This document shows positions 32,451-42,269 of a DNA stretch of 64,000 bases, piece after piece (position 1 is the stretch's first letter; each line of letters starts with the position of its first letter). This DNA is from Bacteroidia bacterium (lineage in GTDB: Bacteria; Bacteroidota; Bacteroidia; UBA4408). The notes under the pieces are model-generated. The model was given only the letters and a program-made list of their open reading frames with translations. It did no database searches and had not been told where the DNA came from. The translations under genes and the position numbers were made by a program. Location of the stretch: the NCBI GenBank assembly GCA_020845635.1, contig JADLFI010000026.1, positions 67,329 to 131,328 on the forward strand, given 5' to 3'.

Positions 32451-32480
32451 TTGTGATTAAAGATTTATTGATTAATTTTG
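32451..32480 (+). promoter_or_regulatory. Promoter of the TPR-comA-rhodanese-dedA-aroE operon
   Basis: TTG, 19 bases and TAATTTTG form an exact two-element promoter. It lies 138 bases before the first ATG, an unusually long leader for this window. Confidence 0.75.
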
Positions 32481-32528
32481 TATGGTAAAACAAATAGTTA
32501 GTAGGTAGTGGTCATTTTTTTACTTTGA

Positions 32529-32568
32529 GAATATACAAAAGGGGTTATAAGATAGTAGATGTATATTC
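32529..32568 (+). ncRNA. Possible hairpin in the operon leader
   Basis: GAATATACA (32529-32537) and TGTATATTC (32560-32568) pair perfectly around a 22-base loop, inside the predicted 5' untranslated leader. A second small palindrome (CTTTTAAAAG) lies next to the purine-rich AGAGGAAG before the ATG. No known riboswitch class is recognisable. Confidence 0.4.
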
Positions 32569-32618
32569 CATAAAATGATTCAAAATAAAAAATCTCTAAC
32601 TTTTAAAAGAGGAAGTAT

Positions 32619-34031
32619 ATGTTTGATGATTCAGATGAAGAAAAAAGCAATTCAGAGCCTTCTGAATTAATACAAAGAATAGAAGAATATTTTAAGATTG
32701 GAGGTCAAGCTTATTTCAATGAGGAAGAGTATGATGAAATTATCAATATATATTCTGAAAACAAGTCCTATCAAAAAGCACTAAAAGTTACCGAAATTGC
32801 CTTAAAACAATATCCTTTCAGCGTTGTTTTTCTACTTCGCCAGGCACAACTATATGGCGCTTCTAATCAAATTTCAAAAGCATTTGAAGCATTATCAAAA
32901 GCCGAGGTTTTTGACCCTAATAATGATGAAATATGGTTTACAAAAGGGACTTTATACAGTCATTTAAATGAGCATGATAAGGCCATATACTTTTATAAGC
33001 AAGCCTTAAAAATCAGCAACGAAGCAGATGAAATATTGATGATGATAGCCATTGAGTATGAAAATAAAAAGGATTTTGAAAAAGCTATTCATTATCTAAA
33101 AAAAGCAGTAAGTAAAAATATTGAAAACGAGTTGGCACTATATGAACTTGCTTGGTGTTATGAAGAAGCCGGCCTACTCCCCGAAAGTATAGAATATTAC
33201 AATTCATTACTTGATGATTATCCTTATTCGGTCTCGGCATGGTATAATCTCGGGATGGCTCATAGCAAACTGAAAGAATTTGATAAAGCCATTGAAGCAT
33301 TTGATTTTTGCTTAGCCATTGAAGAATCATTCTCCTCAGCCTATTTCAATAAAGCCAACGCTTTAGCTAATCAGGGTGAGTTTGCCAAAGCTATTGAAGT
33401 TTATAAAGAAACCTTTGAGTATGAGGAACCCGATGCCTATACACACTACTATTTAGCTGAATGTTATGAGAAATTAGAAGATTATACCCAAGCATTAATA
33501 CACTATCAAAAAGCCGTAAAAATTGACCCTGAATTTTCCATAGCTTGGATAGGAATTGGAGCTATTTACGATATAAAAGAAAGTTATATCGAGAGTCTTT
33601 TTCATATTAAAAAAGGATTAGATCTAGACCCGAATAATGCTGAATATTGGTATCTTTATGGCGATGTACTATACAATGCCGGATGCCCTGAGGAAGCTAT
33701 TGAAGCCTATAAAAAAACCATGTTGCTTGATAAATCAGATATTGATGTACGCATTGATTTGGCATATGTTTATCATGAATTTGGGTATCAACAAGAATTA
33801 GACGAAATTATTCAAAACCTGTTGAATGATTATGGCCTTGATAATGTTGATATGGTATATATTTATGCTGCTTATTGCTTTGTAACAAATCAAAGTAAAG
33901 AAGGTTTAATCTATTTAGAGGCTGCTTTAGATTTAGATATAGAAGGGGTTGATAGATTTTTAGATTTTGACCCCTCGTTTATTCACAACCCAAAAATTAT
34001 TGATTTAATTAGTTTATATAAAGAAATTTAA
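32619..34031 (+). CDS. Tetratricopeptide-repeat protein
   Basis: A 470-residue protein made almost wholly of TPR units, about eleven, such as AWYNLGMAHSKLKEFDKAIE, AYFNKANALANQGEFAKAIE and AWIGIGAIYDIKESYIESLF. No signal peptide or membrane segment is seen and the N-terminus is acidic (MFDDSDEEKSNSE), so it is probably cytoplasmic. TPR proteins are scaffolds; no partner is visible from the sequence. The stop overlaps the ATG of the ComA-like gene by one base (TAATG), which suggests translational coupling. Confidence 0.92.
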   Translation: MFDDSDEEKSNSEPSELIQRIEEYFKIGGQAYFNEEEYDEIINIYSENKSYQKALKVTEIALKQYPFSVVFLLRQAQLYGASNQISKAFEALSKAEVFDPNNDEIWFTKGTLYSHLNEHDKAIYFYKQALKISNEADEILMMIAIEYENKKDFEKAIHYLKKAVSKNIENELALYELAWCYEEAGLLPESIEYYNSLLDDYPYSVSAWYNLGMAHSKLKEFDKAIEAFDFCLAIEESFSSAYFNKANALANQGEFAKAIEVYKETFEYEEPDAYTHYYLAECYEKLEDYTQALIHYQKAVKIDPEFSIAWIGIGAIYDIKESYIESLFHIKKGLDLDPNNAEYWYLYGDVLYNAGCPEEAIEAYKKTMLLDKSDIDVRIDLAYVYHEFGYQQELDEIIQNLLNDYGLDNVDMVYIYAAYCFVTNQSKEGLIYLEAALDLDIEGVDRFLDFDPSFIHNPKIIDLISLYKEI

Positions 34032-34819
34032 TGAATTTTAAATTAAAACACCTGCCCGAGCGTAATAGTAAACCACGCAATAGTGGAATTACTATGATGA
34101 TGGATAAAGGACTAAGCATAAAAGAAGTAGAAAACTTTATTGAAACAAGTGCTGATTATACTGACTTGGTAAAACTTGGGTTTGGCACTTCTTACCTTAC
34201 AAAAAATCTTTCCCAAAAAATAAAACTATACCAAGAAGCCGGAATAAAAGTATATGTTGGAGGAACTCTTTTTGAGGCTTTCATAATAAGAAATCAATTT
34301 GATGATTATTGTCGCTTTATGGATAAGTTTAATCTTACCGTAGCCGAAGTATCTGATGGGTCAGTGTCTATGAATCATGATGTTAAGTGTAGTTATATCA
34401 ATAAATTGTCTAAAAACTACACAGTTCTTTCAGAAGTAGGCTCAAAAGAAGAAGGGATTATTATTCATCCCAACAAATGGATAGGCATGATGAAAAAAGA
34501 ACTTGAAGTGGGGTCATGGAAAGTTATTGCAGAAGCACGCGAGAGCGGAAACGTTGGTATTTACCACCGTGATGGGAAAACACATACTATGCTCATTGAC
34601 AAAATTGTCGCAAAAATTAATGTTACTGATATTATGTGGGAAGCTCCCATAAAAAGCCAACAAGTGTGGTTTATTAAAAATTTTGGCACTAATATTAATC
34701 TTGGAAACATTGGGGTAAATGATGTAATCCCTTTAGAAACATTAAGATTAGGGTTACGTGGAGATACCTTCTTTACTTTTTTACCTAAAGAATTAAATCA
34801 AAGCATTGAAACTATATAA
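34031..34819 (+). CDS. Phosphosulfolactate synthase-like protein (ComA family)
   Basis: A TIM-barrel enzyme of the ComA family, 262 residues. ComA adds sulfite to phosphoenolpyruvate to make phosphosulfolactate, known in coenzyme M synthesis of methanogens and in sulfolactate formation by Bacillus. Family landmarks are GITMMMDKGLSIKEVENFIE, DYTDLVKLGFGTSYL, KVYVGGTLFEAF, VAEVSDGS and IAEARESGNVGIY. Here no other coenzyme M gene is near, and the product may feed sulfonate metabolism or something else. Family call firm, substrate inferred. Confidence 0.87.
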   Translation: MNFKLKHLPERNSKPRNSGITMMMDKGLSIKEVENFIETSADYTDLVKLGFGTSYLTKNLSQKIKLYQEAGIKVYVGGTLFEAFIIRNQFDDYCRFMDKFNLTVAEVSDGSVSMNHDVKCSYINKLSKNYTVLSEVGSKEEGIIIHPNKWIGMMKKELEVGSWKVIAEARESGNVGIYHRDGKTHTMLIDKIVAKINVTDIMWEAPIKSQQVWFIKNFGTNINLGNIGVNDVIPLETLRLGLRGDTFFTFLPKELNQSIETI

Positions 34820-34827
34820 ATATCAAT

Positions 34828-35154
34828 ATGTCTCAGATTAAAGAAATTACCGTTCAAGAGCTTAAAGCCATGCGCGAAAGTAAACAAGAACATCAATTAA
34901 TTGATGTTAGAGAGGAAAGCGAAGCCGAAGTAGCATCTATCAATGGAACTCTTATCCCGATGGGCGAAGTCCCTGATAGAATTAATGAAATAAGAAAAGA
35001 TATTCCGGTAATTGTTCATTGCCGCTCAGGAGCTCGTTCTTCATCTGTAATACAATATTTGCAGGCTAATCACAATTTTACTAATTTATTTAATCTTAAG
35101 GGTGGTATTTTGGCTTGGGCCGGTGAAATTGACCATACTTTACCAACTTCATAA
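34828..35154 (+). CDS. Single-domain rhodanese-like protein
   Basis: A 108-residue rhodanese domain without signal peptide. The loop IPVIVHCRSGARSSSVIQYL holds the catalytic cysteine, preceded by LIDVREESEAEVASI. Such proteins carry persulfide sulfur between donors and acceptors. It is between the ComA-like and DedA genes, 8 bases after the former. A sulfur-related partnership with the ComA-like protein is possible but is not shown by the sequence. Confidence 0.93.
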   Translation: MSQIKEITVQELKAMRESKQEHQLIDVREESEAEVASINGTLIPMGEVPDRINEIRKDIPVIVHCRSGARSSSVIQYLQANHNFTNLFNLKGGILAWAGEIDHTLPTS

Positions 35155-35161
35155 TTATTGC

Positions 35162-35803
35162 ATGATTGAACTTTTTAAGCATATTATTCATCTTGATTTT
35201 GATTGGATTTTTGCACAGTATGATACCGCCATTTATTTAATTCTATTCCTCGTAATTTTTATTGAAACAGGACTGGTTTTAATGCCTTTTTTACCTGGCG
35301 ATTCATTGTTGTTTACGGCAGGTTTGTTTGCCCGCACCGGACATTTAGAGCTAAGTTATATTCTTATTTTACTTTTTATAGCTGCTGTATTGGGCGACAA
35401 TGTTAACTATTTTATAGGAAAAAATATTGGTCTAAAAATGCTTCAAATTAAGTTTAGAGGTAAAAGGTTGGTAAAACAAGAGTATCTTACCAAGACACAA
35501 GACTTTTATGAAAAGTATGGAACAAAAACTATTATTATGGCCCGCTTTGTTCCTATAGTACGTACCTTTGCACCGTTTGTAGCAGGAGTAGCCGAAATGA
35601 AATATCGCAAATTCTTATCGTACGACATCTTTGGAGGCGCATTGTGGATTGGAAGCCTTACTATGGCAGGATATTTTCTTGGACATTTTGAATGGATTAG
35701 AAATAATATTGATTTGGTTGCATTGGCAATTATTTTTGTTTCTGTATTACCTATCATTATTGAGGTAATAAAAGCAAAAAGCATTAAAGCTAATAAAGCA
35801 TAA
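35162..35803 (+). CDS. DedA-family membrane protein
   Basis: A 213-residue polytopic membrane protein. Conserved DedA features are ETGLVLMPFLPGDSLLFTAG (Glu and the FLPGDS motif), LGDNVNYFIGKNIG and MARFVPIVRTFAPFVAGVAE. DedA proteins are membrane transporters; UptA, one member, recycles undecaprenyl phosphate across the membrane. The start is the ATG 7 bases after the rhodanese stop. A longer frame beginning at a GTG inside the rhodanese gene is open but would add 20 residues with no conserved match. Confidence 0.93.
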   Translation: MIELFKHIIHLDFDWIFAQYDTAIYLILFLVIFIETGLVLMPFLPGDSLLFTAGLFARTGHLELSYILILLFIAAVLGDNVNYFIGKNIGLKMLQIKFRGKRLVKQEYLTKTQDFYEKYGTKTIIMARFVPIVRTFAPFVAGVAEMKYRKFLSYDIFGGALWIGSLTMAGYFLGHFEWIRNNIDLVALAIIFVSVLPIIIEVIKAKSIKANKA

Positions 35804-35808
35804 TAAAT

Positions 35809-36585
35809 ATGAATCTGGGCCTTATTGGCAAGTCATTAAAACATAGTTTTTCAAAGCATTATTTTGAGCAAAAATTTATGCATGGTAACTATGGTCATTG
35901 CAGCTATCAAAACTTTGAACTTCCCGAAATAAATGAGGAAATATTGAATGGTATAATTGAACAAAACGCTTTAAGCGGGTTTAATGTAACTATTCCGTAT
36001 AAAGAACAAATTGTTCCATTTATTCATCAACTAACGCCAGAAGCAAAAGAAATTGGAGCTGTTAATACTGTTTTAATTGAACCTCATAAAAACAATCACA
36101 AATACTACTTAAGCGGATATAACACTGATTATATTGGTTTTTTAAAATCTATACGTCCCTTTCTAACATATCAGCATCAAAAAGCACTTATTTTGGGTAC
36201 CGGGGGTGCTGCAAAATCTATTCATTATGCCTTAAAATCACTTGGTTGCGAATGTTGGTTTGTAAGTAGAGATAAAAAAGAAAATATATTACAACACTTT
36301 GTATATAGTGAATTAAACGAAACTATAATTAAACACTTTAAATTGATAGTTAACACTACTCCATTAGGGACCTTTCCTCAAGTTGAAGACTTTCCTCCTA
36401 TTCCATTTCAGTACATTGGAAAAGAACATTTGTTATTCGACTTAATATATAATCCGGAAACAACCGTATTTCTGGAATATGGGCGGAAACAAGGCGCTGC
36501 AATAATAAACGGACTATCTATGTTACAATTTCAGGCTGAAGAAGCATGGAAAATATGGAATCAAAAAAAAGGGAACAGCGATTAA
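35809..36585 (+). CDS. aroE: Shikimate dehydrogenase
   Basis: Reduces 3-dehydroshikimate to shikimate with NADPH. The N-terminal substrate domain has LIGKSLKHSFSKHYF, SGFNVTIPYKEQIVPF with the catalytic Lys and AVNTVLIE. The Rossmann domain has LILGTGGAAKSIHYAL and NTTPLGTFP. The C-terminal INGLSMLQFQAEEAW is also conserved. The 258 residues are typical. It is last in the operon, and a hairpin spans its stop codon. Confidence 0.96.
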   Translation: MNLGLIGKSLKHSFSKHYFEQKFMHGNYGHCSYQNFELPEINEEILNGIIEQNALSGFNVTIPYKEQIVPFIHQLTPEAKEIGAVNTVLIEPHKNNHKYYLSGYNTDYIGFLKSIRPFLTYQHQKALILGTGGAAKSIHYALKSLGCECWFVSRDKKENILQHFVYSELNETIIKHFKLIVNTTPLGTFPQVEDFPPIPFQYIGKEHLLFDLIYNPETTVFLEYGRKQGAAIINGLSMLQFQAEEAWKIWNQKKGNSD

Positions 36586-36594
36586 ACTGTTCCC
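36571..36594 (+). terminator. Hairpin over the aroE stop codon
   Basis: GGGAACAG and CTGTTCCC pair around an eight-base loop that contains the TAA stop of aroE. The downstream side reads TCTCCACC, without a T-run, so it is a poor intrinsic terminator on this strand. Its A-run on the left would serve a minus-strand terminator, but no minus-strand gene approaches. Confidence 0.4.
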
Positions 36595-39162: not shown

Positions 39163-40425
39163 CTACCTCAAAATATCTAAACGATAAGCGTCAAGTTTAA
39201 CCAGAATAAAGAGCAATATAGTAAAACTCCATAATGACGAACCGCCATAACTAAAGAATGGAAGAGGAATACCTATTACGGGTGCTAAACCTATGGTCAT
39301 TCCTATGTTTATCATTAAATGAAAAAATAAAATAGAAACTACCCCATAGGCATAAATTCTACTAAATTGCGACCTTTGTCTTTCGGCCAAAAATAAAATA
39401 CGTAAGAATAGTAAAATAAACACCAATATCACAGTAGCAGTACCAACAAAGCCCCACTCCTCACCTACTGTACAAAAAATAAAATCGGTACTCTGCTCCG
39501 GAACAAAATCATATTTTGTTTGAGTGCCATTTAAAAAACCCTTACCGTAAATGCCGCCTGAACCAATAGCAATAAGACTTTGATTAACGTTATATCCGGC
39601 TTTTTTAATATCTGCCTCTTTGCCTAAAAAAACATCTATTCTTTTTCTTTGATGTGGCTGTAAATGATTGTAGGCATAATCAACCCCGTATATTACGCTT
39701 GAACAAACAACAATCATTCCTATTAACAAGAAAATATTTTGACGAGATTTCCGCATAAACAGAAATAATATTACAGATAATGAGAATAAAACTATAAGTA
39801 AAATAAGTTTATCAACAAGTAGCGCAAGCATAAATAAAACAAGCATTAGCATACCAAAAAGCAAAAAATTACCCGATAGTCCTTCGCGATATAATACCAA
39901 GATAAAAGATATAAACACCAATGCCACGCCTGTTTCGTTTTCTAGTAAAATAAGAATGATAGGTGTAATAATAATTATGGTAGATATTATTTTAGTTTTA
40001 GTATCGGTCATTTTAATCCCTAATTGGGACAAGTACTTGGCTAATACCATAGCGGTGGCAAACTTGGCAAACTCGGCAGGTTGCACACTAAACTCACCTA
40101 TCTTAAACCATGATTTACTACCTGAAATTTCTGTCCCAAAAAACAATACTGCTACTAAAGAAATTAGGACGATTATCCATAATGGCCAAGCAATGGCTGC
40201 ATAAAAATTACCATCAATAATCAATATAACAGTAGCCAGTAATATAGAGGTTACAATCCAAATCATTTGTTTTCCGTACTTCTGACTTAAATCTGTAATT
40301 AGTTGGTGTTCCTCATTATATACCGAGGCATAAATATTTATCCACCCCATTCCAACAAGCAGTAGGTAAAAGATAACTGTTATCCAATCAATATTACTAA
40401 ATATACCTCTTTGTGATTTTCTCAT
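39163..40425 (-). CDS. rodA: SEDS-family peptidoglycan polymerase RodA
   Basis: The glycosyltransferase of the elongation machinery. The 420-residue membrane protein has about ten segments. Conserved features are AEFAKFATAMVLAKYLSQ, FDFVPEQSTDF (read YDFVPEQSTDFIFCTVGEEW), and the end motif PFFSYGGSSLW. It overlaps the stop of the PBP2 gene by four bases, so the pair is translationally coupled. They form the last two genes of the mreB-mreC-mreD-mrdA-rodA run. Confidence 0.96.
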   Translation of the reverse strand: MRKSQRGIFSNIDWITVIFYLLLVGMGWINIYASVYNEEHQLITDLSQKYGKQMIWIVTSILLATVILIIDGNFYAAIAWPLWIIVLISLVAVLFFGTEISGSKSWFKIGEFSVQPAEFAKFATAMVLAKYLSQLGIKMTDTKTKIISTIIIITPIILILLENETGVALVFISFILVLYREGLSGNFLLFGMLMLVLFMLALLVDKLILLIVLFSLSVILFLFMRKSRQNIFLLIGMIVVCSSVIYGVDYAYNHLQPHQRKRIDVFLGKEADIKKAGYNVNQSLIAIGSGGIYGKGFLNGTQTKYDFVPEQSTDFIFCTVGEEWGFVGTATVILVFILLFLRILFLAERQRSQFSRIYAYGVVSILFFHLMINIGMTIGLAPVIGIPLPFFSYGGSSLWSFTILLFILVKLDAYRLDILR

Positions 40426-42269
40426 TTTTTATCGGTTTCTTTTTTCGATTTATTTTCAGTAGAAAGAACCACACCTTCTAACATTCTTTTTTCCATTTCA
40501 GGCTTACTTATGGAATCACGTAAATACTTTTCAATCATTAAACCGCCTATTGGTACTGCCCATGAAGCCCCCCAACCACCGTTCTCTACCATTACAGCAA
40601 TAGCTATTTTAGGATTGTCGCGAGGGGCAAAAGCAACAAATACTGAATGGTCTTTTCCATGTGGGTTTTGTGCTGTTCCGGTTTTTCCGCATATCACAAT
40701 ATCTTTAAGCTTTGCTGCTGTAGATGTTCCATGGTCAACAGCCCCTTGCATACCGTCAATAATGGGATCAAAATAACGAGCATCAATCTTAGTTTGATGT
40801 TTTATTTTGTATTCAGGATGTGGTTGTTTTGATTCGCCAATGCCTTTAATAATATGTGGTGTATAATAGAAACCTCTATTAGCAATGGAACACATTATAT
40901 TTGCCATTTGTAGTGGTGTTACTCCTAACTCTCCCTGCCCTATTGATAATGAAACAATAGTGGACGACTTCCATCCATTGACTCCAAAATATTTATCATA
41001 ATATTGTTGGGTAGGGACGTTGCCCGGTAATTCTTGAGGCAAATCGGTGTGTATCTTTTTTCCAATTCCAAAGCTTAAAACGTACTCGCGCCACGCATTG
41101 TATCCGTCAACCACACTTGGATATTTCTTTTTATTGTCAATAATACTTCTAAAAACATAGCAAAAATAAGAATTGCAAGATGTTGAAACAGCTCCGGGCA
41201 AATCCATGGGGCTTGGATGAGGATGGCACTTAGGTTTCCCACCCATTACAGGATACCCACGGGCGCATGGATACCGTGTTTCACGAGAAGTTACCTGTTC
41301 TTGCTCTCCAATTAACCCGTTAATTAATTTAAAAGTAGAGCCCGGTGGGTAATATGCCATTAAAGCGCGGTTAAACAGGGGAAGCCTATTATCGACAAAT
41401 AGTTTGCCGTAATTTTTTGTTCTTTCTCTTCCAACTAATAAATTGGGATTATACGAAGGACTGGAAACGCAGGCTAAAATTTCGCCTGATGATGGTTCAA
41501 TAGCAACTATAGAGCCTGTTTTATTTTGTAACAATAATTCGCCATACTTTTGCAATTTGGCACTTAATGATGAAACTAAATTTAAACCCGAAATAGCCAA
41601 GGTATCATAAATACCATCTTTAAATCTACCCTTTGGTCTGTTAAAAACATCAACCATCATAATTTTCAAACCTTTCCTTCCTCTCAGTTCTTTTTCGTAT
41701 GATTTCTCAATTCCACTGATACCAATATAATCGCCCATTTTATAATAAGGATTTTTTTTAATGATGGCTTCTGAAACTTCGCCCACATAACCTAAGGTAT
41801 GGGCTGCTATTTCTTGTGGGTATTTGCGCAGCGTACGCGATTGAACAAAGAAACCCTGAAACTTATAGAGCTTTTCTTGCAAGGCGGCATAGGTTTCTTT
41901 GGATAATTGTTTTTCGAAAACAGATTCTTTGTAAGGTGAATATGCCCGCGCTTGCTTATATTTTTTTATAAATTGTTCTTTGGTTATTCCTACTGTTCGA
42001 CAAAAATCGGCAGTATCTAATTCTTTTACCTGCCGGGGGGTTACCATCAAATCGTAAGCTACCTCATTATATACCAGCAATTCTCCGTATCTATCATAAA
42101 CTAAACCACGTGCAGGATACTCAGTAACATACCTAAGAACATTATTTTCTGCTGATAATTTATAAGTATCATTAATTACTTGAATATAAAATAATCTGAG
42201 CAAATAAATAATACCTACAGCTATAAATATACCGGCAATAACATATCTTCTTCCCGTCAGAGCATTCAT
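40422..42269 (-). CDS. mrdA: Penicillin-binding protein 2
   Basis: The transpeptidase partner of RodA, 615 residues. One N-terminal membrane segment (about residues 11-27), a PBP dimer domain (about 50-220), then the penicillin-binding domain with the active serine in YYPPGSTFKLINGLIG, the SxN motif in VSTSCNSYFC and KTGTAQN. An acidic-basic C-terminus (KSKKETDKK) follows the domain. The order and size match PBP2 of other Bacteroidota. Coupled to rodA by a four-base overlap. Confidence 0.96.
   Translation of the reverse strand: MNALTGRRYVIAGIFIAVGIIYLLRLFYIQVINDTYKLSAENNVLRYVTEYPARGLVYDRYGELLVYNEVAYDLMVTPRQVKELDTADFCRTVGITKEQFIKKYKQARAYSPYKESVFEKQLSKETYAALQEKLYKFQGFFVQSRTLRKYPQEIAAHTLGYVGEVSEAIIKKNPYYKMGDYIGISGIEKSYEKELRGRKGLKIMMVDVFNRPKGRFKDGIYDTLAISGLNLVSSLSAKLQKYGELLLQNKTGSIVAIEPSSGEILACVSSPSYNPNLLVGRERTKNYGKLFVDNRLPLFNRALMAYYPPGSTFKLINGLIGEQEQVTSRETRYPCARGYPVMGGKPKCHPHPSPMDLPGAVSTSCNSYFCYVFRSIIDNKKKYPSVVDGYNAWREYVLSFGIGKKIHTDLPQELPGNVPTQQYYDKYFGVNGWKSSTIVSLSIGQGELGVTPLQMANIMCSIANRGFYYTPHIIKGIGESKQPHPEYKIKHQTKIDARYFDPIIDGMQGAVDHGTSTAAKLKDIVICGKTGTAQNPHGKDHSVFVAFAPRDNPKIAIAVMVENGGWGASWAVPIGGLMIEKYLRDSISKPEMEKRMLEGVVLSTENKSKKETDKK

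Follow-up and report, generated by a model that had tools for sequence, protein, structure and literature searches.

An operon of ComA and a putative lipid-carrier flippase in Bacteroidia, and a possible ComA-ComB route to cysteate for sulfonolipids

Layout and conservation of the ComA operon

We analysed a stretch of 64,000 nucleotides from Bacteroidia bacterium (assembly GCA_020845635.1, contig JADLFI010000026.1, positions 67,329 to 131,328 of the forward strand; hereafter the window), focusing on five tightly spaced open reading frames (ORFs), all on the plus strand, that encode a TPR-repeat protein, a ComA-family protein, a rhodanese, a DedA-family protein and AroE. These genes and the hairpin at their end are as follows.

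32619..34031, plus strand: TPR-repeat protein, 470 amino acids (aa), with TPR repeats (Pfam)
34031..34819, plus strand: ComA, (2R)-phospho-3-sulfolactate synthase family, 262 aa; PF02679 298.3 bits
34828..35154, plus strand: single-domain rhodanese, 108 aa, with Cys65 in HCRSGARS; PF00581 52 bits
35162..35803, plus strand: DedA-family membrane protein, 213 aa, with E35, D47, R128 and R134; PF09335 74 bits
35809..36585, plus strand: AroE, shikimate dehydrogenase, 258 aa; PF08501 69.2 bits
36571..36594, plus strand: hairpin over the aroE stop, -14.2 kcal/mol, z -5.8; putative terminator

The TPR and comA genes overlap by one base, the following gaps are 8, 7 and 5 bases, and 268 bases separate the TPR gene from a kinase-like gene upstream; judging by the spacing, the five genes would form one transcript. 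The gene names and spacings given in the initial annotation of this locus agree with the ORF coordinates and Pfam families. However, the TPR gene does not begin at 32451 as annotated, where an in-frame TTG is immediately followed by TGA, and the annotated end at 36594 is that of the hairpin, not that of aroE. The hairpin lacks a T-run on the plus strand, and a terminator consensus scan, which returned 2 terminator-like sites versus 1.8 expected, calls a terminator there on the minus strand only.

To place this gene order in context, we used a sample of 395 genomes of the phylum, 99 of which have a PF02679 match, 98 of them above the cut-off (G019 has a match below it only, and is kept among the 99). 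Thirty-five of these belong to the class of the window, including its own genome. Judging by match length, some genomes of other classes (such as G050, G058 and G328) may hold a divergent ComA only; they are counted in the 99, and the 35 of the class are unaffected. Gene order was read in 36 ComA loci from the 35 class genomes and in 80 named loci from a genome-contig scan, the latter being the best 80 of 589 confirmed and biased toward kin of the window. Gene labels in these loci are based on sequence similarity, with DUF368 checked by Pfam in four loci, and genes to the right of ComA were counted in the 105 loci with at least 2500 bases on that side (35 class, 70 named; 11 of the 116 were excluded).

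A TPR gene lies immediately 5' of ComA in 30 of the 36 class loci and in 75 of the 76 named loci with flanking sequence, and AroE lies downstream within 6.5 kb in 29/35 class and 34/70 named loci, many of the named loci ending early. The order TPR-ComA-(rhodanese)-(DedA or DUF368)-AroE recurs across class Bacteroidia, and one locus (L037) reads TPR-ComA-rhodanese-DUF368-AroE, that is, the operon of the window with the alternative flippase. Because the identical gene order recurs in other genomes, the gene set of the window is, as read from gene order, more than a chance association; it extends past close relatives, the point on which the initial annotation had made its proposal depend.

An exchangeable flippase slot

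In the slot after ComA, 32 of the 105 loci have a DedA gene and 32 a DUF368 gene, and no locus has both. DUF368 accounts for 8 class and 24 named loci, DedA likewise for 8 and 24, a WD40-type gene for 1 and 17, and none of these for 18 and 5, so DUF368 does fill the DedA slot elsewhere, a point that the initial annotation had raised as a question. The slot DUF368 proteins of L037, L038, L040 and L043 score 327-337 bits against PF04018, above the cut-off, while in three loci of family f10 (L039, L050 and L064) DedA stands farther off, at 1.8-4.6 kb, and is separated by other genes. When mapped onto a 115-row ComA tree, from which a divergent ComA, the second copy in G033 (L035), was omitted, the DedA/DUF368 label takes five changes, four of them forced by well-supported branches. 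We also assembled a set of 72 class genomes, consisting of all class genomes with ComA, all with DUF368, three with ComB only and listed negatives. Genome-wide, homologs of the window DedA occur in 7 of the 33 DUF368-positive genomes versus 38 of the 39 DUF368-negative ones (Fisher p 4e-12, kinship ignored); of the seven copies, that of G194 has an internal stop.

The key residues E35, D47, R128 and R134 are conserved in 31, 30, 31 and 31 of 31 slot DedA proteins, respectively, and their spacings in the window DedA equal those of YghB E39, D51, R130 and R136, the set of the COG0586 undecaprenyl-phosphate subfamily. The window DedA is thus probably an undecaprenyl-phosphate flippase, and it is likely that the slot protein in general is a lipid-carrier flippase, and the envelope lipid-carrier role hinted at in the initial annotation has gained ground. 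The anti-correlation of DedA and DUF368 across bacteria at large is already in print (PMC10127716, in the portion available), and the available portions of that paper and of PMC9876793 report no Bacteroidota test of DedA/UptA or DUF368/PopT flippases. The literature searched contained no report of the two families replacing each other within an operon, and their repeated exchange in a single slot offers independent genomic support for a shared job in Bacteroidota.

Some further observations concern the slot and its surroundings. The WD40-type gene, identified by Pfam as a beta-propeller in one locus only (L036:6010-6921), occupies the slot in 18 of the 105 loci, mostly Crocinitomicaceae/Fluviicola-type records. 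Two f17 genomes (L127 and L128) have DedA-like and DUF368 genes side by side, unlike the either-or pattern of the ComA operon, and G115 (2.0 Mb) is the sole one of the 72 class genomes that matches neither DUF368 nor DedA. In the window, RodA/FtsW-type and PBP2-type genes, whose products use the lipid-II pathway, lie on the minus strand (39163-42269), 2.6 kb 3' of the operon.

The rhodanese tends to accompany a flippase: among 104 loci, it lies within 1.5 kb of ComA in 47 of the 64 with a flippase versus 1 of the 40 without (1/41 in the 105-locus count), though this association rests on five changes, too few for a pairs test to reach significance. The co-occurrence of ComA and rhodanese, about which the initial annotation had asked, holds in part of the loci but not in most of the class sample, where just 2 of 35 loci have a rhodanese, both of them among the 16 with a flippase; the other 19 have none. 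Cys65, in a CxxGxR loop of predicted catalytic type, is invariant in 52/52 collected relatives. Thiosulfate sulfurtransferase activity would release sulfite, the substrate of ComA. A rhodanese-DedA fusion is described elsewhere (PMC10127716, as far as available), which by analogy favours the flippase as the partner of the rhodanese, and the presence of a rhodanese beside both flippase families bears on a link that the available part of the same paper calls unclear.

The TPR protein is probably cytoplasmic, and a scaffold role is a guess. The window AroE scores 69.2 bits against PF08501 (cut-off 27) and looks like an ordinary shikimate dehydrogenase, carrying by eye what we take to be the usual motifs of that enzyme. 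The initial annotation had tied AroE to ComA through PEP (phosphoenolpyruvate)-derived metabolism, an idea that finds no support, as genomes lacking ComA still have AroE beside TPR or DUF368. For the same reasons AroE was rejected as a candidate sulfolactate dehydrogenase; moreover, the 16 genomes tested, which do not include this genome, have no second AroE match.

ComA, ComB and the sources of cysteate

The window ComA exceeds the PF02679 cut-off of 25.2 by far and matches the solved structures PDB 1u83 and 1qwg, the closest being B. subtilis ComA. Alignments read by eye show that it shares with them K48, E82, E135, E168, R170, E171, E204, K208, E236 and R239, while Bacillus ComA has N at the position of its D109. 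On these grounds, it is very likely a phosphosulfolactate synthase. ComB (PF04029) is present in 213 of the 395 genomes, namely in 98 of the 99 ComA-matching genomes (the exception is G300) versus 115 of the 296 without; within the class, it accompanies ComA in 34 of 35 genomes. Given this co-occurrence, ComA is probably a working enzyme. The ComB of this genome (PF04029, 264 bits) is encoded on another contig (C18), unlinked to the operon and immediately after gcvT (L092:6874-8684), and a gcvT-cluster gene was found in 15 of the 17 class ComB loci read, identified to family for this genome's copy only. Hence the statement that nothing else here belongs to the coenzyme M pathway is correct for the operon but not for the genome.

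Two divergent ComA-like proteins from other classes (L076:6956-7789 and L085:6956-7789), encoded after an MmgE/PrpD gene and before an acyl-ACP thioesterase gene, respectively, share 23% identity with the window ComA and have lost many key residues, and were rejected as orthologs at that identity. In another locus outside the class (L071:5407-8607), ComA is flanked by genes for a 4-alpha-glucanotransferase and a starch-synthase-domain protein (Pfam, L071), and the ORFs around ComA in L070, L072-L074 and L077-L083 resemble L071 in length only; in L069:6938-9000 and L090:6917-9116, also of other classes, ComA adjoins a MacB/FtsX-type permease gene. A 196-aa ORF with no Pfam match lies between ComA and the rhodanese in L156 (6280-6870), and in L144, L146 and L148 an ORF of equal length comes after ComA. 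A NifS-like cysteine desulfurase gene, absent from the window, is divergent from TPR in the three loci checked (L132:1117-3860, L152:1325-2458 and L156:1272-2396), accompanied in L132 by a phosphoglucomutase-type gene, and similar ORF lengths are seen in many other named loci. It was rejected as a sulfopyruvate transaminase: it resembles cysteine desulfurases, and all copies score below the curated cut-offs.

Sulfonolipids, outer-membrane lipids of Bacteroidota, have in print been linked with gliding, with inflammation and with choanoflagellate rosettes; the cysteate sources named for them are CapA and, in Alistipes and Odoribacter, an archaeal-type enzyme (PMC10191378, available in part). A SulA-like cysteate acyltransferase is encoded in 70 of the 72 class genomes, including this genome and all 35 with ComA, and is missing only from G002 and G347, both of which lack ComA and CapA. 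The copy in this genome scores 648 bits with SulA 7u7h and 603 with 28eh ('Cysteate-C-fatty acyltransferase'), versus 244 with serine palmitoyltransferase, and reaches only 307 against the NCBIfam serine-palmitoyltransferase model (cut-off 640). CapA was searched in the 395 genomes at E <= 1e-125 to exclude a CBS-like paralog, present in nearly all class genomes with scores of about 355-413 bits. A CapA-type enzyme was found in 49 of them, none of which has ComA or ComB; one scanned copy (L259) scores 632 against the NCBIfam CapA cut-off of 600. This genome has no match at E 1e-125, only the CBS-like paralog at 384 bits. In 18 of 28 genomes (of the ComA-less families f4 and f5, and one f6 genome), the CapA-type enzyme, which is pyridoxal-phosphate dependent, adjoins the acyltransferase. 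The mutual exclusion of ComA and CapA has a Fisher p of 5e-7, which is not a fair test given that the two enzymes are divided along family lines. The archaeal-type cysteate synthase (TIGR03844) has no match above cut-off in the 72 genomes and nine weak ones, and was rejected as a source for the ComA-less genomes, since the five weak matches scanned (including G261, G363 and G379) are threonine synthases.

Proposed role, alternatives and known systems

From these results we propose that ComA-ComB provides cysteate for sulfonolipids by an alternative route, and that the operon also recycles a lipid carrier, a reading that we hold to be evenly poised. ComA would join sulfite and PEP into (R)-phosphosulfolactate, ComB, encoded beside gcvT elsewhere in the genome, would dephosphorylate it to sulfolactate, and putative enzymes would convert sulfolactate to cysteate by oxidation and then transamination. 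The SulA/CapB-like acyltransferase would then condense cysteate with a fatty acyl chain and start sulfonolipid (capnine) synthesis, ComA-ComB thereby taking the place of CapA, the cysteate synthase in other Bacteroidia. DedA, or DUF368 in other members, would return undecaprenyl phosphate to the cytoplasmic face; the rhodanese may supply sulfite to ComA or serve the flippase, the TPR protein is perhaps a scaffold, and AroE would act as an ordinary shikimate dehydrogenase. For the parts of this proposal our confidence differs: the arguments for a cysteate-sulfonolipid destination of the ComA-ComB product about balance those against it, while a functional tie between the sulfonate arm and the flippase arm is somewhat less likely than not. 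The combined picture, in which many Bacteroidia use PEP and sulfite via ComA-ComB as a third cysteate route, the operon ties sulfonolipid supply to lipid-carrier recycling and two unrelated flippase families swap, is tentative, falling a little short of even. If true, the route would explain the 35 of 72 class genomes in which the acyltransferase occurs without either known cysteate source. A literature search, which did not cover the content of the original CapA paper (Biochemistry 2022), found no paper joining sulfonolipids with phosphosulfolactate, and among the matches listed none joins capnine to phosphosulfolactate or ComA. Overall, the initial annotation is partly supported, its hint at sulfonate metabolism having gained ground as well.

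Several observations weigh against this proposal. The window ComA scores 258.6 against the archaeal equivalog model TIGR03849, below its cut-off of 280, and the ComB of this genome misses the NCBIfam ComB equivalog cut-offs, as does AroE that of TIGR00507 (168.2 versus 200.2) and the window DedA those of NCBIfam (213.3 versus 236 for NF008102; 58 and 54 versus 300 and 250 for the UptA models). There is no match to ComC-type sulfolactate dehydrogenase (PF02615) in this genome, no dehydrogenase or aminotransferase leading from sulfolactate to cysteate was found, and no sulfonolipid gene is linked to comA. ComB occurs without ComA in 4 class and 115 phylum genomes, and of the 70 genomes with the acyltransferase, 7 lack ComA as well as CapA; three of these 7 encode ComB. 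The acyltransferase is class-wide in distribution whatever the cysteate route, and its Lys281, present here and in 29/29 copies read (of 32), is non-discriminating, so we rejected it as a partner that discriminates ComA genomes. Finally, the ComA/CapA split follows families, therefore few of the switches are independent.

The alternative that survives best is that ComA and the flippase are chance neighbors held together by shared housekeeping expression, which is compatible with the other readings and has about as much in its favor as against it. In the ComA-less family f5, DUF368 lies directly 5' of AroE in all 12 loci read around DUF368 and TPR precedes it in 8, while TPR-AroE is kept without ComA in G021, G142 and G154 (f5, no DUF368) and in G002; in the ComA-less f2 genomes G261, G363 and G379 and in two f4 genomes, AroE has no adjoining TPR. 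TPR-flippase-AroE is therefore independent of ComA, and since it occurs without ComA the two arms may be mere neighbors. The flippase-less order TPR-ComA-AroE is, moreover, common in the class (slot empty in 18/35), and ComA has other neighbors elsewhere in the phylum, which likewise count against our proposal. Against this reading stand the same order over many families and the return of a flippase from another protein family to the same slot, which the ComA tree shows no fewer than four times.

It is also possible, albeit unlikely, that (R)-sulfolactate is itself the end product of ComA-ComB, stored or exported without connection to sulfonolipids. Sulfolactate is stored or exported in Bacillus spores, and the absence of ComC, the closeness to B. 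subtilis ComA and the three acyltransferase genomes with ComB but no ComA all fit such an end product. However, neither the mutual exclusion of ComA and CapA in 395 genomes nor the acyltransferase in all 35 class ComA genomes would be expected of an unrelated product. That ComA supplies a different sulfonate, for instance coenzyme M or taurine, is very improbable: coenzyme M synthesis does begin with ComA in archaea and bacteria (PMC12068725, as far as available), but ComC is missing here (ComDE and the bacterial coenzyme M enzymes lay outside the search), and the CapA exclusion would be left unexplained. Equally improbable is an attachment of sulfolactate to a surface glycan on undecaprenyl phosphate, which adjacency suggests, but the five genes include no glycosyltransferase or ligase, and ComA persists at loci whose slot is empty (23/105) or WD40-type (18/105).

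The proposed cysteate route has parallels in several known systems. It resembles ComA/ComB of methanogens and Bacillus in family, conserved charged residues and ComA-ComB co-occurrence, but differs in the unlinked comB, the lack of ComC, the missed curated equivalog cut-offs and the operon partners TPR, rhodanese, flippase and AroE. With the CapA-CapB/SulA sulfonolipid pathway (PMC10191378 and PMC9304779, both available in part) it shares the SulA/CapB-like acyltransferase, whereas ComA genomes all lack CapA and their cysteate would derive from PEP and sulfite. Methanogens start coenzyme M synthesis in two alternative ways, Type 1 and Type 2, one from PEP (ComA) and the other from phosphoserine (cysteate synthase), according to the available part of PMC12068725; a PEP route and a cysteate-synthase route would likewise be alternatives here, but would converge on cysteate destined for a membrane lipid, and the enzyme family of CapA is not that of the archaeal cysteate synthase model. 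Lastly, as in the COG0586 DedA/UptA and DUF368/PopT flippases (PMC10127716 and PMC9876793, in their available portions), all four key residues and the genome-wide anti-correlation are found here, but in this operon the two families swap repeatedly in one slot, with a rhodanese beside either family.

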